A stretch of DNA of 64,000 bases from Streptomyces sp. NRRL S-455. GTDB taxonomy: Bacteria; Actinomycetota; Actinomycetes; Streptomycetales; Streptomycetaceae. The stretch is from NCBI RefSeq assembly GCF_000717875.1, contig NZ_JOCT01000025.1, positions 47,115 to 111,114 of the forward strand, given 5' to 3'. Every line of letters begins with the position of its first letter. Position 1 is the first letter of the stretch. Shown here piece after piece: positions 33,105-45,139 of this stretch. The notes below the pieces were generated by a model. The model saw only the letters and a program-made list of their open reading frames with translations, was not told the DNA's origin and did not search any database. Both the position numbers and the translations under genes were made by a program.

Positions 33105-33135
33105 TTGGGTCGATGTCAGACCCAGGACCTAGTCT
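33105..33135 (+). promoter_or_regulatory. Promoter of the condensin-like cassette with internal inverted repeat
   Basis: TTGGGT (33105-33110) and TAGTCT (33130-33135) could be -35 and -10 boxes, 19 bp apart. TGGGTC and GACCCA form an inverted repeat (33106-33111 and 33119-33124) between them. The -10 box ends 7 nt before the GTG at 33143, predicting a leaderless transcript. A repressor binding the palindrome would block the promoter. Confidence 0.45.
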
Positions 33136-33142
33136 GTGCACC

Positions 33143-34669
33143 GTGACTTCGCCTGCATCGACGGACAGCGTTCCGCCCCAGCTCAGCGCGGGGCCGCGCC
33201 CCGCGCCGGGGCCGGCCGCCGACGAGGGCCTGGCGCGGCGCCTGCGTGCGCTCGCCTGCACCGCGCCGCTGCACGACCTCGACGCGCGCAAGGCCAACCT
33301 CGCCGGCGAGTACTCGGTGTACGGCATGGCGGAGGTCGCCCTCGCGGCCATCGACCTCGTCACCCTGAACATGGACTTCGACACGGGCGCGGACCACGAC
33401 CAGATCGTCGCCCGCCTCGTCCCGCGCATCGCCGCCCAGGCACCGAGGCGCCCCGCCGCCGAGCACGAGCGGGTGGCCCGCTGGGTCCTGGAGAACCTGA
33501 TCAACGTCGGCAGCGTCGACCGCGGCTTCCGCGCGGTGTACGGCACATTCGGAGCGGACGGCACCTATGTGCGCCGCGACTACGACTTCAAGCTGATCGA
33601 GGAGGTCCCCGGCCCTGGTGGCACGGTGTACCTCCGCACGACGGACGAGGCGGTCAACGTCCTCGTCGGCGCCCTCGACACGGACGTCACCAGCGCGCAG
33701 ATCGCCGCCGAGGTCAAGCTGGAGGTGCTGATCAGCCGCGGCCGGCTCGCCGACGCCCAGCTCGCGGCCGAACAGGCCCGCTACCGCACCGTGCAGTACT
33801 CGGAGACCCTGCGCAGAGCCCTGGAGGCGACCCGGCGCAACGTGCGCGCGGTGGACTGGCTCAGCACCGTGCCCGACATGATCGCCGAGGCGCTGGAGCA
33901 CGTCGCCGACCGCTACCGCCACGAGAACGCGATCCTCACCAACATCCGCAAGGCCCGCGACGAGACCGAGGAGCCGGAGCACAAGCGCCGCGCGGCCGAG
34001 CTCGTCGACATCGTCAAGGACTGCATCCGCCGGCACACGCAGTTGCAGTCCCGGCTGCTCGAGGCCGGGCCGCTGTTCCGCGCCGAGCAGGACCGGCAGG
34101 CCTTCGCCGCTCCGACGGCCACCTCGGGAATCGACCTGTACGGCCATCTCGTCGCCCCGGTCCTGCCGCTGCCGCTGGAGCAGGCCGTCCGGGTCACGGA
34201 CGCCTTCTTCGGGCGCGGCACGGGCCTGCGCACGCCCGTGTCCGTCCGGGTCGGCGACCTCGTCGACCTACTGCTCACGCCGCCGGTGGAGCGGGAGCAC
34301 CTGGGCGTGGAGATGCCCGAGCCGGACCTCATCGCCACGCCCGACGACAGCCGGTTCAGCGAGGAGCAGATGGCCGTGGCGCAGGAGCTGCTCGATCTGC
34401 CCGCGGACGCGCCGAGGCGACTGTCCGGGCTGCTGGCCGAGGCCCGCCGGCTGGATCCCGAACTGCCGTACCTGGTGGCACTGCTGGCGGTGCACGCGGC
34501 CAGTCCGCCGGTCGGTACGGCTTATCGCCAGGGCGAGCAGAAGCTGCTGTTCGCCGTGGACGACGGGACCGAGCTCGACGATCCGGAGTTCGGCGGGGCC
34601 GACCTCATCGTCGGCACGGCACTGCTGGACGCGGCGGGGATGGCGGCGGACCGGACGGAAGCAGCATGA
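33143..34669 (+). CDS. Kleisin-like subunit of a condensin-type system (MukF/MksF/JetA-like)
   Basis: The 508-residue protein is mostly helical, with no enzyme motif. A first about 150 residues resemble a winged-helix region (AEVALAAIDLVTLNMDFDTGADHDQIVARLVPRIAAQ and a YVRRDYDFKLIEE strand). A long middle helical bundle follows (TVQYSETLRRALEATRRNVRAVDWLSTVPDMIAEALEHVADRYRHENAILTNIRKARDETEEPEHKRRAAELVDIVKDC). The C-terminal half is acidic. Size, helicity and position before a small winged-helix protein and an SMC-like ATPase match MukF/MksF or JetA, though primary similarity cannot be tested here. The start is GTG, probably leaderless. Confidence 0.7.
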   Translation: MTSPASTDSVPPQLSAGPRPAPGPAADEGLARRLRALACTAPLHDLDARKANLAGEYSVYGMAEVALAAIDLVTLNMDFDTGADHDQIVARLVPRIAAQAPRRPAAEHERVARWVLENLINVGSVDRGFRAVYGTFGADGTYVRRDYDFKLIEEVPGPGGTVYLRTTDEAVNVLVGALDTDVTSAQIAAEVKLEVLISRGRLADAQLAAEQARYRTVQYSETLRRALEATRRNVRAVDWLSTVPDMIAEALEHVADRYRHENAILTNIRKARDETEEPEHKRRAAELVDIVKDCIRRHTQLQSRLLEAGPLFRAEQDRQAFAAPTATSGIDLYGHLVAPVLPLPLEQAVRVTDAFFGRGTGLRTPVSVRVGDLVDLLLTPPVEREHLGVEMPEPDLIATPDDSRFSEEQMAVAQELLDLPADAPRRLSGLLAEARRLDPELPYLVALLAVHAASPPVGTAYRQGEQKLLFAVDDGTELDDPEFGGADLIVGTALLDAAGMAADRTEAA

Positions 34670-34704
34670 CCGAGCACCAGTGGAACAAGGAGCCCCGACC
34701 GTGA
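34666..34704 (+). CDS. 12-codon minigene bridging the first two cassette genes
   Basis: ATGA at 34666 overlaps the stop of the kleisin-like gene, and its own TGA overlaps the GTG start at 34701 (GTGA). The product would be MTEHQWNKEPRP. Its first codons (TGACCGAGCAC) are repeated at the start of the next gene, and it carries that gene's AAGGAG ribosome-binding site. It may simply keep ribosomes moving across the junction. Confidence 0.3.
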   Translation: MTEHQWNKEPRP

Positions 34705-35582
34705 CCGAGCACGTCGAGTGGAGTGAGCCGGAGGGCCCGGCACCGACGGCCACCGCCGCCGTCACTCCCGCCGACGCCGCCGACGCGGCGCGGCTCGTGT
34801 CCTTCGGGTTGCAGCCCAAGCTGCAGCCCGCCCGCGACCAGGAGTACGCGGACCTGCTGCGGCGCTACCGGGAGGACCCGCCGTTCGCGCGGCTCGCCGA
34901 CGCCGTGGCCACCGGTCTCGGGCTGATCGTGCTGGAGGTGTCCCCCCGCGCGGGCATGGCCGTGACCGCCGCCGAGGACTCGGTGTTCGCCGTCCGCATG
35001 GGCGACTACGCGCGTCGTACGTCCGCCGACGGCGGCGACCGGTTCCTGCACGGCCTCGCCCATCTCGCCGTCGCCGCCATGGCGTTCCCGCGCCCCGAGG
35101 ACCTCGCCGACGACGGCTACATCGGCCGCGTCACGGTCAACGGCGTCGACGCCTTCGTACGCCAGGCCTGCCGCCGCCTGGAGGAGCGGGCCGCCGAACA
35201 GGGCGAGATCACCGACCCGGCGACCGACGCGCCCGGCCTGGAGGCCGCCTGGCGGATCTGGGTGCGGCGCAGCTCGACCGGCGCCACCAAGGACGCCCGC
35301 CGGCTCGCCGGCTCGACCACCGGCATCGTCGCCAAGGCCCTCGCCTTCCTCACCGACTCCGGTTTCCTCCAGCGCACCGGCGACGACAGCGGCGGCACGT
35401 ACCGCACCACCGCCCGCTACCAGCTCCAGGTACGCGACATGGCCGGCAGCGCCGCCATGGCCGAGTTGCTGGAGCTCGGCGTCGTCCCGGTCACCGACGG
35501 CACGCCGACGCTGCTGCCCGCCGAGGAGAGCGACGACCTGGACCTGGTCGCCGACGCCGGGCTGCCCTTCCACTCCTCCTGA
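34701..35582 (+). CDS. Winged-helix accessory subunit (MukE/MksE/JetB-like)
   Basis: This is a 293-residue protein without enzyme motifs. The stretch WRIWVRRSSTGATKDARRLAGSTTGIVAKALAFLTDSGFLQRTGDDSGGTYRTTARYQLQVRDMAGSAAMAELLELGVVPV reads as a winged helix followed by the helical tail typical of MukE-type (KITE) subunits. The N-terminal segment (LLRRYREDPPFARLADAVATGLGLIVLEVS, then VAAMAFPRPEDLADDGYIGRVTVNGVDAFVRQACRRLEE) may be the other wing. It sits between a kleisin-like protein and an SMC-like ATPase. The GTG start has AAGGAG 8 nt upstream; a 37-bp gap separates it from the SMC gene. Confidence 0.7.
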   Translation: MTEHVEWSEPEGPAPTATAAVTPADAADAARLVSFGLQPKLQPARDQEYADLLRRYREDPPFARLADAVATGLGLIVLEVSPRAGMAVTAAEDSVFAVRMGDYARRTSADGGDRFLHGLAHLAVAAMAFPRPEDLADDGYIGRVTVNGVDAFVRQACRRLEERAAEQGEITDPATDAPGLEAAWRIWVRRSSTGATKDARRLAGSTTGIVAKALAFLTDSGFLQRTGDDSGGTYRTTARYQLQVRDMAGSAAMAELLELGVVPVTDGTPTLLPAEESDDLDLVADAGLPFHSS

Positions 35583-35619
35583 ACATCCCTTTTTCTGAGA
35601 AGGCTTACGAGAGTCCGCC

Positions 35620-38600
35620 ATGTACGAGCTGTCCCGGGTCCGCCTCTACTCCATCGGACCCGCCGGTGCGCGCTACGCCGACACCGTGCTTGACCTGCGC
35701 GGGGTGGGCGAGCCCGTCCCCGAGCCCGCCCCTGCGCAGGCGGAGTTCTTCGAGGAGGAGCCCGTCGGGCCGCCACGCCGGCCCGCGCCCGCGGGCGTGC
35801 TCTTCCTCGAGAACGGCGGCGGCAAGTCGGTCCTGCTCAAGCTGATCTTCTCGGTGATGCTGCCGGGACACCGGAACACGCTCGGCGGCGCCAGCTCCGG
35901 CGTGCTGCGCAAGTTCCTGCTCGCCGACGACTGCGGCCATGTCGCGCTGGAGTGGCAGCACGTACAGACCGGCGAGTGCGTCGTCGTCGGCAAGGTCAGC
36001 GAATGGCGCGGACGGCAGGTCTCAAACGACCCGCGGAAGTTCGCCGAGGCCTGGTACTCCTTCCGGCCCGGTCCCGGGCTGAGCCTCGACAACCTCCCCG
36101 TGGCCGAGGCCACCACCGTCCGGCCCCCGGCCGAGGGCCAGTCGGGCGCGCGCGGGCGGCGGCGCACCATGAAGGGCTTCCGCGACGCCCTGACGGAGGC
36201 GGGCAAGACGTACCCCCACCTGGAGGTCCACTGGGAGGAGATCCACGACCGCTGGATCGAACACCTCGGCGACCTCGGCCTCGACCCGGAACTCTTCCGC
36301 TACCAGCGGGAGATGAACGCCGACGAAGGTGAGGCCGCCGGCCTCTTCGCGGTCAAGAAGGACGCCGACTTCACCGACCTGCTGCTGCGCGCCGTCACCG
36401 ACACACGCGACACCGACGGGCTCGCCGACCTGGTCAGCGGCTTCGGCAACAAGCTGGGCCGACGCGCCGAGCTGATCGCCGAACGGGACTTCACCGCCGG
36501 GTCCGTGGACCTGCTCGGTCGGATCGTCGAGGCCGCCGAGGCCCGCACCCGCGCGCGTGACATCCACGCCGGAGCCGAGCGCCGGACCCGCACCCTGGCG
36601 CGCCGGCTGTCCGCGCGCGGTGTGCGGGAGCGGGTCCGGGCCGCCGACCTGGCCCAGCGGGTGACCGCCGCCGCGTACGCCGTCACCCACGCCGAGGCGG
36701 CCCGCGAGCGCAGCGCGCTGATCTCCGCCGAACTCGCCTACCGGCACGCCTCACTGGCCCTGGCCGCGGCCGAGAAGTCAGCCGCCGCCCAGAAACGCGA
36801 GCTCGCCGACGCCCGCACCCTGTACGCGGCCTGGCAGGCCGCCGAGGCCGTCCTGCGGCACCGCGCGGCCGCCGACCGCGTCGCCCGCGTGTCCGCCGCG
36901 ATCCAGGAGGCGGAGCGGGACGCCGCCCCCGCCCTGGCCGCCCGCTCCAAGGCCGCCGTCGACCTGGTACGGGCCCTGCACGCCGCCGCGGAGAAGGCCG
37001 AGAGCCACGCCAACGAGGAGGAGGAGCGCTCCGCCGCCCTCCAGGAGGTCAGCGACAGCGCCTACCGCGACTCCACGGCCGCCGCCACCCAGGCGCAGCG
37101 GGCCCGCAGCGAGGTCGGCCACCTGAAGCAGCGTCTCGCCGAGGTCGAGCAGGAGACCGCCGAGGCGGTCCGGGCCGGCTGGCTCGACGACAGCGCACCC
37201 GACGCCGACCCGGCCCGCGCGGCCCTCGCCGCCAGCGACGCCGAGAAGAGCGCCGTCGAGGCCTGGGACACCGCCCGCGAGGCGTCCCGCCGGGCGACCG
37301 AGCACGCACGCGAGGCCGCCGCCACCGAGACCCGCGCGGAACTGACCGCGGCCCGCGCGGCGGACGCGGCGACAGCCGCTGAGCGGTCCTACCAGGCCGA
37401 GCGCCGTACAGCCGAGGCGCTGGCGGGGGAGGAGCGGCTGGCAGAACTTCTCAGCCTGACACCGCGGACCCGCCCGGGCATCCCGCAGCCCCGCCACGGC
37501 ACGGACGGCGAGCAGCCCGCCCCGGCCGTCCCCGGCGAGCACGCACTCAGTCCCGAGGAACTCGACCGCTTCGCCGACGACCTGCGCGAACTGCTCGACG
37601 ACGCCGTCTCCTCCGCCGAACGCCAGCTGTTCGACCTGCGTACGGCAGCCGCCGACGACTCCCGGATCCTCGGTGCGCTCGGCGACGGCGGCCTGCTGCC
37701 GCCTGGCCCGGACGTCCTGGCCACGGTCGAGTTCCTGGGCGAGCACGGCATCCCCGCGCTGCCCGGCTGGCGTTACCTCGCACAAGCCGTCGACCCGGCC
37801 GACCACGCACGCGTGCTGGCCGCCCGGCCCGAACTCGTCGACGGCGTGATCATCACCGACCCGGACTCCCACGCCCGCGCCCGGGAGGCGCTGGGCGACG
37901 CCGCCCTGCTGCCGAGGTCCGCCGTGGCGGTCGGCACGGCCGCCGCCCTGCTCGCCCCGACCCCCGCCCCGGACACCGACAGCGGCGACGTGTTCCTCGT
38001 GCCGCCGAACCCGGCCATGCACGACGAGCACGCCGCCGACGAGGAGCGGCAGGCACTGCGGGCCCGGGCGGCCGAGCGCGACGAGGAGATCCGTACGCTC
38101 GCCGCACGGCTCGGCAAGGACCGGGAACTGGCCGCCCGGCTCGCCTCCTGGCGCTCCGGCTGCCCGGCCGGCCGACTGGCCGAGCTGGCCCAAGCGGCCC
38201 ATGACAGCCGCGAGTTCGCCGAGGAGTCTGAGGCCGAGCTGGCCGAGGCCCGCACCGCGCGGGCCGAAGCCGACGAGGCCGCCGCCGAGGCCGCGCACAT
38301 CCGGGACGAGCGGCAGGAGGCCGCCCAGAAGGCCCGCCGCTCCGCCGACGCCCTCGCCGGGCTCGCCTTCCGCCTGCGCGAGCGGGCCGGCTGGCAGGTG
38401 AAGCTGCGCGAACTGGCCGACGAGGCGGCCGAGTCCGAGGCGGCCGCCCAGGCGTGCCTGGAGCGGGCCCGGGCCGCAGACGAGGACCGGCGCGCCGCCC
38501 AGCGCGCCGCCGACGACGCCCGCCGCACCGCCCGCGCGCTGCGCGCCGAACGCTCCGAGATCGCGGGCGCCCCCGACGACGTACCCGAGGACGACGCCCA

Positions 38601-40257
38601 GACACCGAAGGCCTCCCTGCCCGCCCTGCGCGAGGCCTACCGGGCCGCCTCCCAGGTCTACGAGAAGGTCGGTGTGGGCGCTGACCTGCGGGCCGAACAG
38701 GCCCGCGCGGAGAGCGACGAGAGCGCGGCCCGCGCGGAGCTGGACCGGCTGAGCAACAAGGTCCGCACGCGCGCGGAGCAGCTCCTCGAATCCCCCGACG
38801 GCTCCGACGGTCCCAGCCGCCAGGCCGCCGCCGCCCGCGCCGAGGAGCTGGTGCAGCTCCTGGAAACCCGTATGTCGAGCGCGAGTGAACAGCTCGGGCG
38901 GCTGCGCGGCGAGGCCGAGCGGCACGCGCCCGAGGACGGTGACGCCCACACCGAACTCCCCGAGGACCTCCAGCCGCGTGACGCCGAGCACGCGCAGGCC
39001 CTGCTGCGCACCGCCACGGCCGAACTCGCATCCCACACCGAGGCCTTGACCCAGGCCCGCGAGGCGCACGCCGAACTCCTCGACGCCCACCGGGCCGCCG
39101 AGGACGCGGCGAGCGGTTTCGACGAGATCGCCGCGATGCTCCGCGACCTGCTGCGCGAGCACACCCCGGAGGAGGAGCAGGAGGAGCCCGAGCCGTACCC
39201 CGGCAGCCCGGAGGAGGCCCGGCAGTCGGCCGCCGAGGCCCGCCGCTCCCTGCGCGGCTGCGCCGCCGACCTGTCCGCCGCCGAGACCGCCGTCCGCGAG
39301 GCCAGCGACATCCTCGTCCGGCACGCCAACTCCACGCGCTACGAGCAGGTCCGCACCCCGGCACGCCAGCAGATCCGCGAACTGCCCGCCTCGGCGCTGC
39401 CCGAGCACGCCCAGAAGTGGGCGGACGCCTTCGCGCCCCGGCTCCGGGTGCTGACCGACGAGCTGGAGCAGCTGGAACGCAACCGCGACTCGATCGTGGA
39501 CCGGCTGCGCGGCCTGGTCGAGTCGGCCCTGGCCACCCTGCGCTCCGCCCAGCGGCTCTCCCGGCTGCCGGAGGGCCTCGGCGAGTGGTCCGGGCAGGAG
39601 TTCCTCCGCATCCGCTTCGAGGAGCCCGACCAGGCCACGCTCACCGAACGGCTCGGCGAGGTCATCGACGAGGCGACCCGCGCCGCCGTCAAGAAGAACT
39701 CCGACCTGCGCCGCGACGGCATGTCCCTGCTGCTGCGGGGTGTCGCCGCCGCGTTGCAGCCCAAGGGCGTCGCCGTGGAGATCCTCAAGCCCGACGCGGT
39801 GCTGCGCGCCGAGCGCGTCCCCGTCGGGCAGATGGGCGACGTGTTCTCCGGCGGCCAGCTCCTCACCGCGGCCATCGCGCTGTACTGCACCATGGCCGCG
39901 CTGCGGAGCAACGACCGGGGCCGCGACAAGCACCGGCATGCCGGGACGCTGTTCCTCGACAATCCGATCGGCCGCGCCAACGCCACCTACTTGCTGGAAC
40001 TCCAGCGGGCGGTGTCCGACGCCCTGGGCGTCCAGCTCCTCTACACCACCGGCTTGTTCGACACCACCGCGCTGGCCGAGTTCCCCCTCGTCATCCGCAT
40101 GCGCAACGACGCCGACCTGCGGGCCGGCCTCAAGTACATCAGCGTCGAGGAACATCTGCGGCCGGGCCTGCCCCAGCAGCCCCAAGCGGGAGAGGCGGTG
40201 CACAGCGAGATCACGGCGACCAGGATGTTCAAACGCCCCTCGCCGTCGGCGTCCTGA
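35620..40257 (+). CDS. SMC-like chromosome/plasmid-organising ATPase (MukB/MksB/JetC-like), 1545 residues
   Basis: N-terminal ATPase half: MYELSRVRLYSIGPAGARYAD, Walker A LENGGGKSVLLKLIF (residues about 64-71). From about 230 to 600 and 810 to 1270 lie long Ala/Glu/Arg-rich coiled coils. Residues about 610-810 form a globular hinge-like insert (LLPPGPDVLATVEFLGEHGIPALPGWRYLA and VDGVIITDPDSHAR). C-terminal half: signature VFSGGQLLTAAIAL (about 1407) and Walker B TLFLDNPIGRAN (about 1443). The residue after the Walker B Asp is Asn where SMC/Rad50 ATPases have the catalytic Glu. The cassette order kleisin, winged helix, SMC matches MukFEB/JetABC. No JetD topoisomerase-like nuclease follows: the next gene is a convergent membrane protein. 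Confidence 0.85.
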   Translation: MYELSRVRLYSIGPAGARYADTVLDLRGVGEPVPEPAPAQAEFFEEEPVGPPRRPAPAGVLFLENGGGKSVLLKLIFSVMLPGHRNTLGGASSGVLRKFLLADDCGHVALEWQHVQTGECVVVGKVSEWRGRQVSNDPRKFAEAWYSFRPGPGLSLDNLPVAEATTVRPPAEGQSGARGRRRTMKGFRDALTEAGKTYPHLEVHWEEIHDRWIEHLGDLGLDPELFRYQREMNADEGEAAGLFAVKKDADFTDLLLRAVTDTRDTDGLADLVSGFGNKLGRRAELIAERDFTAGSVDLLGRIVEAAEARTRARDIHAGAERRTRTLARRLSARGVRERVRAADLAQRVTAAAYAVTHAEAARERSALISAELAYRHASLALAAAEKSAAAQKRELADARTLYAAWQAAEAVLRHRAAADRVARVSAAIQEAERDAAPALAARSKAAVDLVRALHAAAEKAESHANEEEERSAALQEVSDSAYRDSTAAATQAQRARSEVGHLKQRLAEVEQETAEAVRAGWLDDSAPDADPARAALAASDAEKSAVEAWDTAREASRRATEHAREAAATETRAELTAARAADAATAAERSYQAERRTAEALAGEERLAELLSLTPRTRPGIPQPRHGTDGEQPAPAVPGEHALSPEELDRFADDLRELLDDAVSSAERQLFDLRTAAADDSRILGALGDGGLLPPGPDVLATVEFLGEHGIPALPGWRYLAQAVDPADHARVLAARPELVDGVIITDPDSHARAREALGDAALLPRSAVAVGTAAALLAPTPAPDTDSGDVFLVPPNPAMHDEHAADEERQALRARAAERDEEIRTLAARLGKDRELAARLASWRSGCPAGRLAELAQAAHDSREFAEESEAELAEARTARAEADEAAAEAAHIRDERQEAAQKARRSADALAGLAFRLRERAGWQVKLRELADEAAESEAAAQACLERARAADEDRRAAQRAADDARRTARALRAERSEIAGAPDDVPEDDAQTPKASLPALREAYRAASQVYEKVGVGADLRAEQARAESDESAARAELDRLSNKVRTRAEQLLESPDGSDGPSRQAAAARAEELVQLLETRMSSASEQLGRLRGEAERHAPEDGDAHTELPEDLQPRDAEHAQALLRTATAELASHTEALTQAREAHAELLDAHRAAEDAASGFDEIAAMLRDLLREHTPEEEQEEPEPYPGSPEEARQSAAEARRSLRGCAADLSAAETAVREASDILVRHANSTRYEQVRTPARQQIRELPASALPEHAQKWADAFAPRLRVLTDELEQLERNRDSIVDRLRGLVESALATLRSAQRLSRLPEGLGEWSGQEFLRIRFEEPDQATLTERLGEVIDEATRAAVKKNSDLRRDGMSLLLRGVAAALQPKGVAVEILKPDAVLRAERVPVGQMGDVFSGGQLLTAAIALYCTMAALRSNDRGRDKHRHAGTLFLDNPIGRANATYLLELQRAVSDALGVQLLYTTGLFDTTALAEFPLVIRMRNDADLRAGLKYISVEEHLRPGLPQQPQAGEAVHSEITATRMFKRPSPSAS

Positions 40258-40286: not shown

Positions 40287-40739
40287 TCACGGGTGGGACA
40301 GCTGCCCGGCACCGCCCCGGCGGCGTATCCGCTCCCGCGCCCGTTCGTCCGCGCGCGCCCGCCGTCGGGCACGGCGCCGCTCGCGTCGCAGGGCCCGGGC
40401 CGTGCTGCTCGGCACGGACACCACGCCATGGCGCTGGTTCCACACCTGGCGCGTCACCCATACGTCGAGCACACCCCACGTCGCCACGATGGTGCTGACC
40501 ACGCTGCTGATCACCAGGGGCAGGGCCAGCCAGGAGCCGGCCATCGTGCACAGGAAGGCCGCCACGGCCTGGACCAGCGTCAGGGCGATGATGAGTACCG
40601 CCCGCACGGCAGCCGTCCTCACCGGATCCGGCAGCCTGCGCCGCCGCGCGGGCTCCTCCACCCACAAGGGCCGGTTGTACCGCTGCTCGTGCGGGTCTCG
40701 CGCCCTTCCGGGCGTCTCGTACCGCTCCGCCGTGCCCAT
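40287..40739 (-). CDS. Small integral membrane protein with basic tails
   Basis: The 150-residue protein has two to three hydrophobic helices in the middle (AVRAVLIIALTLVQAVAAFLCTMAGSWLALPLVISSVVSTIVATWGVLDVWV). Its N-terminal tail is polar, and its C-terminal tail (ALRRERRRARRRARADERARERIRRR) is strongly Arg-rich, likely cytoplasmic. No family is recognised. It converges on the SMC-like gene with 29 bp between stops, and is therefore not part of that operon. The ATG at 40739 is preferred, with GGAAGG upstream; a GTG at 40757 would add six residues. Confidence 0.72.
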   Translation of the reverse strand: MGTAERYETPGRARDPHEQRYNRPLWVEEPARRRRLPDPVRTAAVRAVLIIALTLVQAVAAFLCTMAGSWLALPLVISSVVSTIVATWGVLDVWVTRQVWNQRHGVVSVPSSTARALRRERRRARRRARADERARERIRRRGGAGQLSHP

Positions 40740-41162
40740 CACCCTGTCACCTTCCACCGCCAGCAGACCGCTCTCGCTCGCATCCGAAGACCCGCGCTCC
40801 CCAGTGGCTGCCCGGCTTGCGCTGTATTACGCCGCCCAAGTGCGGGATGCGGCTCCTGTGGCCGATTCCGCCCCCGTTTCCTGTAGGGAAGGACGAGCGA
40901 CCCACCACGAAGATTCCCAGAGAACGAAAAATTTCAGCCAACCACCCAAGCAGGCAACGGAGGTTGGCCGGTGCGGCCACCATCGATTTCGGGGAGACAA
41001 CTCCCGCAATGCCCGGACAACTCGGCATGCCCGTTCAGTGGCGCGGAAGTTCACGTTCCGGACCGGTCTTCGAGTTCCCTGTTCGTCGGTAGTAGGCTCG
41101 CGCCGTTTGTTGACGCACATGTGTACCCCCGGTGGCCCCGGGGGCCCGAGCTGGGGGAGGCC
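40740..41162. other. Divergent promoter region between the small membrane gene and the conservon
   Basis: These 423 bp contain no supported protein gene. A -10-like TAGGCT (41093-41098) lies 65 bp before the cvnA start. The AT-rich run GAGAACGAAAAATTTCAG (40920-40937) is unusual for this genome and may belong to the minus-strand promoter. A GGGGG-type ribosome-binding site closes the region. Confidence 0.5.
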
Positions 41163-44100
41163 ATGCGCTTTCGCGGGAAGTCCATCCGCCGGAAGATCGT
41201 GGCGCTGCTCCTCGTGCCGCTGGTGTCCCTGACCGCGATCTGGGCTTTCGCCACGGTGCTCACGGGACGTGAGGCGGGCGACCTGTTCAACGTGTCGTCC
41301 GTGGTGGAGAAGATCGGCTACCCCATCGAGGACACGGTCCGCGTCCTGCAGGAGGAACGCCGCCAGACCCTCGTCTACCTCGCCGACCCCCGTGCCTCCG
41401 ACGGGCTCGCCGCGCTCCGGCGCAGCCGGGCCGCGACCGACAAGGCCGTGAGCGGCATCCGCGAGAACGCCCGGAACCCGGACGTGCGCGACGCGATGGG
41501 AGCCGGCACCGACGAGCGACTGACCGCGGTCCTGGACGCCTTCGAAGGCATCGAGGCGTTGCGCAGCAGCGTCGAGGACGGCACCGTCGACCGCGCCCAG
41601 GCCCTGGGCCTCTACAACCGGCTGGTCGATCCCTGCTACGTGCTGCTGGCCAACCTGCACGTGGTCGACAACGTGGAACTGGACAAGCAGTACCGCGCGC
41701 TGGTCAATCTCGCCCGTGCCCGCGAACTGCTCTCCCGAGAGGACGCCCTCCTCGGCTCCGCCCTGATCGTCGGCCGGATCTCCCCCTCCGAAGAGCGCGA
41801 CATCTCCGACCTCGTGGCCCAGCGCACGCTGATGTACGACGTCAATCTGCCGCTGCTGCCCGTGGCGGAGCGCGACCGCTATGAGAGCTTCTGGAAGAAC
41901 GCATCCTCCGCACCGCTGCGCGTGGCCGAGGAAGCCGCCCTCAACTCCGGCTCCGGAGCCCCCCGCGGGGTCACCGCCAAGAGCTGGGACAGCGCCGCCG
42001 GTAACGTCCTCGACGAACTCGGTACCCTCAACGACCAGGCCAACGACCGCTACCAGGACCGCGTCCACCCCGTGGCCGTGGGCGTCATCGCCAAGGCGGT
42101 CATCGCCGGCGCACTCGGCCTGATCGCGCTCCTGCTCTCCCTCTTCCTCTCCGTCCGTGTCGGCCGCACCCTCATCCGCGACCTGAGGCAGCTGCGCCTG
42201 GAGGCCCACGAGGCGTCCGGAGTGCGGCTGCCCAGCGTGATGCGCCGCCTCTCGGCGGGCGAGCAGGTCGACATCGAGACCGAGGTCCCGCGCCTGGAGT
42301 ACGACAAGAACGAGATGGGCGAGGTCGGCCAGGCCCTCAACACCCTCCAGCGCGCGGCCGTCGAAGCCGCCGTCAAGCAGGCCGAACTGCGCGCCGGCGT
42401 CTCGGAGGTCTTCGTCAACCTCGCGCGCCGCAGCCAGGTCCTGCTCCACAAGCAGCTCACCCTGCTCGACGCCATGGAGCGCCGAACCGAGGACACCGAG
42501 GAACTCGCCGACCTGTTCCGGCTCGACCACCTGACCACCCGCATGCGCCGGCACGCCGAGGGTCTCGTGATCCTCTCCGGCGCCGCGCCCTCCCGGCAGT
42601 GGCGCAAGCCCGTCCAGCTCATGGACGTCGTACGCGCCGCCGTCGCCGAGGTCGAGGACTACGAGCGTATCGAGGTCCGCCGCCTGCCGCGGATCGCCGT
42701 CACCGGCCCGGCCGTCGCCGACATCACCCACCTGGTGGCGGAACTCCTGGAGAACGCCACGGTCTTCTCACCGCCGCACACCGCCGTCCAGGTCGTGGGC
42801 GAGCGGGTCGCCAACGGCTTCACCCTGGAGATCCACGACCGTGGCCTCGGTATGGCCGCCGAAGCCCTGCTGGACGCCAACCTCCGGCTCGCCGAGACGC
42901 CCGAGTTCGAGCTGTCCGACACCGACCGGCTCGGCCTGTTCGTGGTCAGCCGCCTCGCCCAGCGACAGAACGTCCGCGTCTCCCTGCAGCCCTCCCCGTA
43001 CGGCGGTACGACCGCCGTCGTCTTCATCCCGGACGCGTTGCTGACGGACGACGTCCCGGACACGAACGGCATCGGCTTCCGGCTCGACCGCCCCCAGCCG
43101 GCCTCGGAGAGCGAGCAGCGGGACAGCCGCCGCACCGCGCTGTCCCAGGCACCCGCACCACGTCCCGGTCTTCCGGCCTCCCTCCTGGACGGACCGGTCG
43201 AGCTGGAGGCCCCCGTCGACCTGGACACCATCGACGGCTTCCCCGGCGCCCTCGAGGACGGAAACAGCGAGCACGGCGGTCTGTTCCGCCCCCGGCACTC
43301 CCTGACCCGCGGCCAGGACGAGAGGGCCGGTCGCGGCGAACCACACCAGCAGGCCGACGCGCGTGGCGCGGCGGACCGGACCGACACCGACGACGAGCTG
43401 AGCGCTCCTGTCCCGCTGTCCCGCCGCCCCACCCCCAAGCTGGTCAGCTCCCACGGTCGTCCCGTCACCGACCAGCGCCCCCGGCGGGGGAAGACGGACG
43501 AGGAGATCACTCCGGGGACCGACCGAGCGGAGTCCGTGGTGCCCCCCGCGCTCCCGTCGCGCCGACGAGGCGAGGAGCGCGGCCGGACCACGGACCGGTC
43601 CGGTCCGGAGCCCACTGCCACGCTTCCGGTCCGGAGCCGTACCGAGAGCTCCCCGACCGGGACGACCGGGAGCGGACGGAGCGAGGCGCAGCCGGACGCA
43701 CCGCCGCCCCTGCCGGCCCGCCGTCGCGGCACGGAGTCCACCCGGCGCGGCATCGGCGCCGTCGGCCCCGGTGACGACCACCCCGCGCCCCCGGCCCCGT
43801 CCGGCAGTGCCGCGGGATCGGAGCCGTCCGCTCTGCCCAAGCGGACACGCCGCGCGGAGATCGCCTCGAGCGGCCCGGACAGCCCCGACCACCGCCCCGG
43901 CCCCAGGCCGGAGAGGACAGGCGGGCCCATGCGCCACGCGTCAGGCTCGGGCGCCGCGGACCAGGGGACCGGCTCGGCCCGCGGCACCGCGGGCCAGGGG
44001 GCCGGCTCCGGTCCCGCACAGTGGGGCGAGGGGAACGGCACCACACCGCTCGGGCCTCGCTCCGGCACCGCCCCGCTGCCCCGGCGTGTGCGGCAGGCCA

Positions 44101-44303
44101 GCCTGGCCCCGCAGCTCAAGCGCGGGCCGGAGCCGCGTAAGGAGGACAGAGCAGAGCCCGTCGAACGCGACGCCGAGGAAGTACGCAGCCGTATGGCCTC
44201 GCTCCAGCGCGGCTGGCAGCGCGGCCGCGACGAGAACGCAGCGGGCGACGCCGCCCACAGCGGCACAGCACCACAACGAACGACAGAGGGGGACGGTCGA
44301 TGA
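41163..44303 (+). CDS. cvnA: Conservon sensor histidine kinase-like protein CvnA
   Basis: The 1046-residue protein has an N-terminal helix (KIVALLLVPLVSLTAIWAFATVLT, 13-36) and a nitrate/nitrite-sensing (NIT) extracellular domain to about 300. A second helix near 307-330 and a HAMP-like stretch follow. Then comes a kinase region with LDHLTTRMRRHAEGL and a GHKL ATPase domain (N box HLVAELLENATVF near 522; G1 HDRGLGM). The last 400 residues are a Pro/Arg/Ser-rich disordered tail, usual for CvnA. Conservons make membrane-associated complexes of CvnA with CvnB, CvnC and the small GTPase-like CvnD, resembling G-protein signalling. The stop overlaps the cvnB start (ATGA). Confidence 0.92.
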   Translation: MRFRGKSIRRKIVALLLVPLVSLTAIWAFATVLTGREAGDLFNVSSVVEKIGYPIEDTVRVLQEERRQTLVYLADPRASDGLAALRRSRAATDKAVSGIRENARNPDVRDAMGAGTDERLTAVLDAFEGIEALRSSVEDGTVDRAQALGLYNRLVDPCYVLLANLHVVDNVELDKQYRALVNLARARELLSREDALLGSALIVGRISPSEERDISDLVAQRTLMYDVNLPLLPVAERDRYESFWKNASSAPLRVAEEAALNSGSGAPRGVTAKSWDSAAGNVLDELGTLNDQANDRYQDRVHPVAVGVIAKAVIAGALGLIALLLSLFLSVRVGRTLIRDLRQLRLEAHEASGVRLPSVMRRLSAGEQVDIETEVPRLEYDKNEMGEVGQALNTLQRAAVEAAVKQAELRAGVSEVFVNLARRSQVLLHKQLTLLDAMERRTEDTEELADLFRLDHLTTRMRRHAEGLVILSGAAPSRQWRKPVQLMDVVRAAVAEVEDYERIEVRRLPRIAVTGPAVADITHLVAELLENATVFSPPHTAVQVVGERVANGFTLEIHDRGLGMAAEALLDANLRLAETPEFELSDTDRLGLFVVSRLAQRQNVRVSLQPSPYGGTTAVVFIPDALLTDDVPDTNGIGFRLDRPQPASESEQRDSRRTALSQAPAPRPGLPASLLDGPVELEAPVDLDTIDGFPGALEDGNSEHGGLFRPRHSLTRGQDERAGRGEPHQQADARGAADRTDTDDELSAPVPLSRRPTPKLVSSHGRPVTDQRPRRGKTDEEITPGTDRAESVVPPALPSRRRGEERGRTTDRSGPEPTATLPVRSRTESSPTGTTGSGRSEAQPDAPPPLPARRRGTESTRRGIGAVGPGDDHPAPPAPSGSAAGSEPSALPKRTRRAEIASSGPDSPDHRPGPRPERTGGPMRHASGSGAADQGTGSARGTAGQGAGSGPAQWGEGNGTTPLGPRSGTAPLPRRVRQASLAPQLKRGPEPRKEDRAEPVERDAEEVRSRMASLQRGWQRGRDENAAGDAAHSGTAPQRTTEGDGR

Positions 44304-44734
44304 CCGCACCGAAGGCGACCGGCCACACCGCGACCATCAAGGGGGAGCTGAACTGGCTCCTCGACGACCTGGTGGACCGCGTCGCGAGCATCCGCAAGGC
44401 CCTCGTGCTCTCCGGCGACGGATTGCCGACGGGCGTGTCCAGGGACCTGACCCGGGAGGACAGCGAGCACCTGGCCGCCGTGGCCTCCGGCTTCCACAGC
44501 CTCGCCAAGGGCGTGGGACGTCACTTCGAGGCCGGCAACGTCCGGCAGACCGTCGTCGAGCTCGACGACGCGTTCCTGTTCGTGACGGCCGCCGGCGACG
44601 GCAGCTGCCTCGCCGTTCTCTCGGACGCCGACTCGGACGTCGGCCAGGTCGCCTACGAGATGACGCTCCTCGTGAAGCGGGTGGGTGTGCATCTGGGCGC
44701 CGCTCCGCGCACCGATCTGCCCGCGGGCGGGTAG
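44300..44734 (+). CDS. cvnB: Roadblock/LC7 protein CvnB
   Basis: The 144-residue roadblock/LC7 protein shows the fold's alternating pattern: LNWLLDDLVDRVASIRKALVLSGDGLPTGVS for the first helix and strand, SEHLAAVASGFHSLAKGV for the second helix, and GDGSCLAVLSDADSDVGQVAYEMTLLVKRV for the last strand and helix. In conservons it binds CvnA and acts on the CvnD GTPase in the way MglB-type roadblock proteins regulate MglA. The four-base overlap with cvnA and the 9-bp gap to cvnC make one operon. Confidence 0.94.
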   Translation: MTAPKATGHTATIKGELNWLLDDLVDRVASIRKALVLSGDGLPTGVSRDLTREDSEHLAAVASGFHSLAKGVGRHFEAGNVRQTVVELDDAFLFVTAAGDGSCLAVLSDADSDVGQVAYEMTLLVKRVGVHLGAAPRTDLPAGG

Positions 44735-44743
44735 TGAGATGAC

Positions 44744-45139
44744 ATGAGCGCTGACGGTCAGGGAAGAAGGCACTGGTTCGACGACGAGGCCGGACCGGTC
44801 GTCCGTCCGTACGCCATGACGCGCGGCCGCACCAGCAGCCAGGGCCAGCACCGCCTGGACCTGATCGCGGTCGTGGTCACCGAGCCGCACGCGGACGATC
44901 CGGAAGCGGACCACATGCTCTCCCCGGAGCATGTGGACATCGTCGAGCTGTGCCGTGACGTCCCGCAGTCGGTCGCCGAACTCGCAGCGGAACTCGACCT
45001 GCCGATCGGGGTGGTACGGGTCCTTGTCGGAGATCTCGTGGACGCGGACTTCGTCCATGTGAACCGGCCCGTACCCCCGGCCGAGCTGCCGGACGAGAGT
45101 ATTCTGCGCGACGTGATCAACGGCCTCCGGGCGCTGTGA
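44744..45139 (+). CDS. cvnC: Conservon protein CvnC (DUF742)
   Basis: The 131-residue DUF742 protein has the conserved VRPYAMTRGRTS motif, a helix-turn-helix-like segment (HVDIVELCRDVPQSVAELAAELDLPIGVVRVLVGDLVDADFVHV) and a short tail. The segment suggests DNA or protein binding, but the biochemical role of CvnC is not settled. In ordinary conservons cvnD follows at once. Here cvnD is 3.7 kb further on and a large OPLAH-type gene has come between, starting 24 bp after the cvnC stop. Confidence 0.92.
   Translation: MSADGQGRRHWFDDEAGPVVRPYAMTRGRTSSQGQHRLDLIAVVVTEPHADDPEADHMLSPEHVDIVELCRDVPQSVAELAAELDLPIGVVRVLVGDLVDADFVHVNRPVPPAELPDESILRDVINGLRAL

Follow-up and report, generated by a model that had tools for sequence, protein, structure and literature searches.

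Operon structure and subunits

The stretch of DNA analysed (the window: 64,000 nt of Streptomyces sp. NRRL S-455, contig NZ_JOCT01000025.1; coordinates below count from the window start) encodes a three-gene operon that is the JetA-JetB-JetC part of a type III Wadjet system, a motor without an adjoining nuclease (Table 1). JetA matches the PADLOC profile JetA3 (PDLC00567, E 1.2e-188) and JetC the profile JetC3 (PDLC00588, E 0). JetB has no PADLOC profile match at E up to 1, and was assigned by its 47% identity to JetB of a complete Wadjet operon in the same genome (see below) together with its MukE/JetB-like predicted model; its N-terminal stretch is longer than in the JetB proteins of the JetD-bearing operons that were compared. 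In structure models, the predicted fold of JetA is nearest to those of kleisins (MukF/JetA), and that of JetB is nearest to KITE proteins (MukE/JetB). A preliminary description of the locus had proposed a kleisin, a MukE-like winged-helix protein and an ATPase of the structural maintenance of chromosomes (SMC) kind, in the gene order of MukFEB and of the JetABC part of Wadjet; the three identities and the order were borne out, the two smaller proteins being kleisin-like and KITE-like in their models rather than unrelated to these folds. The Pfam search gave no match of JetA to the ScpA family, and none of the operon proteins matched the MukB, MukE or MukF families of Pfam or NCBIfam at E up to 1, or had a recognisable sequence match to the chains of solved MukBEF structures.

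The ATPase motifs of JetC are intact, with Walker A (ENGGGKS) at residue 64, the signature (FSGGQ) at 1409 and Walker B (LFLDNP) at 1444, and all three are invariant across the 16 aligned JetC sequences of JetD-less operons. The residue following the Walker B aspartate in SMC ATPases is usually the catalytic glutamate; asparagine takes this place (DNP; JetC residues 1444-1449) in 28 of 28 aligned type III JetC sequences, whether their operons bear JetD or not.

Table 1. Features of the jetABC locus of Streptomyces sp. NRRL S-455, in window coordinates
Feature	Product	Coordinates	Strand	Remarks
jetA	JetA, type III Wadjet kleisin, 508 aa	33143..34669	+	alternative upstream ATG at 33113
jetB	JetB, KITE (tandem winged-helix) subunit, 293 aa	34701..35582	+	
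jetC	JetC, SMC-family ATPase, 1545 aa	35620..40257	+	JetC3 profile match
small convergent gene	putative membrane protein (by inspection)	40287..40757	-	neighbour; membership in the operon not implied

Absence of JetD

As the preliminary description had stated, no JetD gene follows the operon in the window, which covers 23.7 kb downstream of jetABC. JetD was likewise absent beside JetABC at all 16 Streptomycetaceae loci surveyed, one per genus (the window, L063-L076 and L082), with 3.6-6.0 kb of downstream sequence at the loci other than the window. The 18 Frankiaceae loci include 10 whose sequence runs on for 5 kb or more past the JetC match, and JetD was found in none of these; in two Frankiaceae loci (L089 and L094) the JetC frame is short or interrupted. 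Of the remaining loci, L084 offers 1.2 kb and seven break off too soon. Divergent operons served as a positive control: in 18 of them JetD was detected immediately behind JetC. For 10 of these its presence was already known when they were fetched; the other 8 (L081, L097, L098, L100, L101, L102, L104 and L105) had been picked blind to JetD, and all 8 carry it. Of four further divergent loci, L077 and L106 stop too soon, L099 shows a JetA and part of a JetB only, and L080 has a match that is partial and unresolved. The absence of JetD beside jetABC is a fixed trait.

Elsewhere in the genomes, matches to the JetD3 profile occur in 19 of 121 Streptomyces genomes and are strong in 11. All 12 places with strong JetD3 matches adjoin a second, divergent JetA (27-53% identity) located approximately 6-7 kb upstream of JetD, and the 9 weak matches are found on a contig other than that of the window-type JetA or more than 1 Mb away from it. 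Matches to Pfam JetD_C occur in 15 of the 121 genomes, bringing the union to 20 genomes and leaving 101 Streptomyces genomes without detectable JetD. The option of a nuclease encoded elsewhere, which the preliminary description had allowed for, is thereby largely excluded in the case of JetD.

Another contig of the NRRL S-455 genome encodes a full JetA-JetB-JetC-JetD operon (L005:6530-14526, contig C5 of genome G000; JetD3 E 2.6e-80), of which JetA, JetB and JetC are 49%, 47% and 37% identical to those of the window. The only JetD_C match in the genome is weak (E 0.003) and is located on a contig other than the window's, directly after the second JetC. In the complete operon JetA overlaps JetB, and JetC overlaps JetD, by four bases in each case, and its subunits A to D are about 95, 95, 93 and 92% identical to those of locus L100 from another Streptomyces. 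Beside it is a protein (L005:15084-16511) that matches PADLOC mad2 (E 3.8e-14), and the two may possibly constitute a defence island. The coexistence of several operons was also noted in one Frankiaceae genome (G532), which has three: L107, without JetD; L105, close and with JetD, whose JetA is 61% identical to that of the window; and L106, a distant one.

Distribution

Window-type JetA was found in 120 of 121 Streptomyces genomes at 81-100% identity, a few of the matches being partial, and a JetC family match is present, among the matches listed, in 120 of the 121; one genome (G070) has JetC without a JetA match and another (G110) has JetA without a JetC match, both genomes being fragmented. 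Across the Streptomycetaceae, window-type JetA (74-100% identity) is present in 60 of 61 genomes and 16 of 17 genera, the sole exception (G263) having a relative at 27% identity only. An order-level draw gave window-type JetA in 134 of 134 Streptomyces genomes; of its 13 genomes from other families, one has a relative at 32% identity and 12 have none. In a draw of 246 genomes from the class, the only other carriers were 14 genomes of one family (Frankia and Pseudofrankia by protein names), and a related operon, 73-100% identical to a Frankiaceae query, was found in 18 of 29 Frankiaceae genomes. A search with JetB returned 1192 relatives, the best 120 of which are 85-95% identical, with the organism names shown for these 120 being Streptomyces or Actinomycetes.

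Phages gave no match, and only four plasmid records matched, each below 60% identity. A 77-kb plasmid of Rhodococcus pseudokoreensis (NZ_CP070616.1, 68393-69799) encodes a type III-like JetA that is 53% identical to window JetA, and more distant JetA genes are located on three large Streptomyces plasmids.

Phylogeny and operon layout

A tree of 56 JetA sequences places the JetD-less operons of Streptomycetaceae on one branch (support 100/99) and those of Frankiaceae on another (100/100), both among JetD-bearing operons, and a concatenated tree of 28 of these loci agrees; a common JetD-less group is not rejected on the concatenated tree (approximately unbiased test, p-AU 0.218). The roots of the trees are midpoints and several branches are long. 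Since the JetD-less operons branch among JetD-bearing ones and a common group is not rejected, JetD was probably lost either once, perhaps with an early transfer, or twice.

The layout of the operon differs between JetD-less and JetD-bearing forms, in a comparison that uses start sites chosen by script. The median distance from the JetA stop codon to a fixed JetB residue is 48 codons in Streptomycetaceae and 54.5 in Frankiaceae versus 23 in JetD-bearing operons. JetB and JetC are 37-273 bp apart in Streptomycetaceae, leaving out one misplaced start, against a median gap of 3 bp where JetD is present; the two genes of Frankiaceae overlap (median -8), and thus a widened JetB-JetC gap is not common to both JetD-less groups. 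JetC of Streptomycetaceae is 1525-1620 aa long, compared with 1478-1527 aa in 16 of 17 JetD-bearing operons.

Selection

In comparisons with six close relatives, the ratio of nonsynonymous to synonymous substitution rates (dN/dS) ranges over 0.07-0.09 for JetA, 0.10-0.15 for JetB and 0.08-0.12 for JetC; by this measure jetABC is under purifying selection and evidently in use. With four relatives each, the downstream kinase gene gave 0.27-0.33 and the small convergent gene 0.19-0.39.

Neighbouring genes

Upstream of jetABC are genes of a FadR-type regulator, a transporter, a D-glutamate cyclase, a LamB/YcsF protein and a carboxyltransferase, and downstream are the small convergent gene and then a cluster of sensor kinase, roadblock, DUF742 and hydantoinase genes. 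The small convergent gene has no Pfam match; a relative of it is found near JetABC at 11 of the 16 Streptomycetaceae loci by tblastn and at 7 by clustering of open reading frames. The same clustering found the downstream kinase in common to 9 of the 16 loci, and found no nuclease-like neighbour common to them. The genes at 40971-45139 (nitrate-sensing kinase, roadblock and DUF742, with the hydantoinase gene directly after) resemble a Streptomyces conservon.

Possible functions of JetABC

The reading that we favour, with a probability of roughly 0.55, is that jetABC is a type III Wadjet motor which lost JetD and became a fixed part of the core genome, forming a second SMC complex next to Smc-ScpAB; ScpA was found on another contig of the host genome by a search aimed at ScpA alone. 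Near-universal retention of the motor by the Streptomyces relatives sampled suggests a defence machine turned housekeeping organiser of DNA, and this universality, together with the precedent of MksBEF, is the ground on which a chromosome-organising role may be attributed to it. The complex is read as a loop extruder without a cutting step by analogy with type I Wadjet and MksBEF, as described in excerpts of PMC10586767, and a dimer of dimers is envisaged from type I Wadjet and MukBEF: JetA would bridge two JetC dimers, JetB dimers would bind the kleisin, and JetC, driven by ATP, would reel in loops of DNA, so that stalling on a circle or an obstacle, without JetD, would lead to compaction or tethering and no cleavage. 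Having no cutting step, JetABC could act safely and permanently on the chromosome, which would explain its fixation. A broader form of the proposal, to which we give slightly less than even odds, is that the mycelial Streptomycetaceae and Frankiaceae derived a second condensin, separately from the MksBEF/MukBEF lineage, by stripping a type III Wadjet of its nuclease, and use it to organise hyphal or spore chromosomes alongside Smc-ScpAB.

Several observations weigh against a housekeeping role. Of 28 single-contig genomes (positions read by hand from the listing of JetA matches), 24 have the locus in the outer quarter of their chromosome, and this counts against such a role since Wadjet is enriched in Actinobacteria and toward the ends of Streptomyces chromosomes, according to a statement in excerpts of PMC10482375 that does not set the JetD-less form apart from other Wadjet. 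Frankiaceae have kept the operon only patchily, in 18 of 29 genomes. The constraint on jetABC is strong, and it is not exceptional, because the upstream transporter gene has a dN/dS of 0.13-0.16 (six relatives). There are also broken copies: in one Streptomyces genome (G010) the JetA and JetC matches (C1:5735565-5736935 and C1:6929967-6932699) are separated by some 1.2 Mb, the former being shortened and the latter containing a stop, and in the single-contig genome of one genus (G265, locus L072) JetC has a broken reading frame, while JetA and JetB each match in pieces. These two cases apparently represent decay of the complex, or sequence errors.

The main rival is non-cleaving restriction of foreign DNA, in which JetABC would recognise small circular or foreign DNA by completed loop extrusion and silence or compact it without cutting; Smc5/6, which restricts episomes in eukaryotes, offers a parallel. 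Defence genes are usually patchy in distribution, whereas JetA is present in 120 of 121 Streptomyces genomes with partly shared synteny, and Streptomyces carry small circular plasmids at high copy, which also speaks against this explanation. Its Wadjet-derived ancestry, its membership of the motor family of a plasmid sensor and its outer-chromosome position, as for defence systems (excerpts of PMC10482375), speak for it, and we regard it as unlikely, at somewhat better than one chance in five.

Cleavage in trans, by JetD of a second Wadjet or by an unrelated, unlinked nuclease, would be conceivable in NRRL S-455, with its complete JetABCD on another contig; it is rendered improbable by the 101 Streptomyces genomes that lack detectable JetD and nearly all have JetABC, and by the want of a nuclease-like neighbour common to the loci. 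The same 101 genomes, where there is no detectable JetD to antagonise, make it more doubtful still that the complex serves as a decoy for incoming Wadjet/JetD systems, or as their antagonist, and titrates or regulates them, as do the intact ATPase motifs and the subunit identities of only 37-49% to the second operon of the host, even though JetD-bearing second operons do coexist with it (strong JetD3 in 11 of 121 genomes). That the operon is a decaying remnant of a defence operon would fit the loss of JetD and the rare broken copies (G010 and G265), and is scarcely credible, being contradicted by the dN/dS of all three genes and by retention in 16 of 17 genera.

If jetABC is indeed a second SMC complex fixed in the core genome, then a near-universal, selected, nuclease-free Wadjet motor would have been overlooked in antibiotic producers, and these bacteria would offer a natural test of whether housekeeping condensins descend from SMC machines of defence, since a single genome holds armed (JetABCD) and disarmed (JetABC) versions side by side.

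Comparison with known systems

No description of a JetD-less JetABC of Streptomyces or Frankia was recognised in the literature searched, outside which lie subscription papers and preprints. Recent papers on S. venezuelae SMC, in the excerpts available, present SMC as the condensin of Streptomyces, and a second SMC complex there is not mentioned. Window JetA is outside the ScpA kleisin family of Smc-ScpAB, and ScpA of the host is encoded on a separate contig. With MukBEF the operon has in common the kleisin-KITE-SMC order and the absence of a nuclease (a feature also of MksBEF), and its models are nearest to MukF and MukE, but its proteins have no recognisable sequence match to MukBEF and the complex coexists with ScpA in one genome.

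Among systems of the Wadjet kind, MksBEFG of Corynebacterium glutamicum is likewise an actinobacterial SMC complex, but one that has retained a nuclease, MksG, and defends against plasmids (excerpts of PMC10123090), whereas the window operon has no JetD beside it. Type I Wadjet senses small circles via loop extrusion and cuts them by JetD, and MksBEF of Pseudomonas aeruginosa, which likely arose from JetABCD through loss of JetD, contributes to chromosome organisation (both from excerpts of PMC10586767); MksBEF is a chromosome-organising precedent, while the window operon is a JetD-less form from the type III lineage of actinomycetes. Type III Wadjet itself is the closest system, with homologous JetA3 and JetC3, a JetB homologue, identical gene order and the same positions of the ATPase motifs, including the DN at the end of Walker B. 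It differs from the window operon in having JetD, a shorter JetC, a shorter N-terminal stretch of JetB and tighter gene spacing, whereas the window operon, without an adjoining JetD, is near-universal in its host family.
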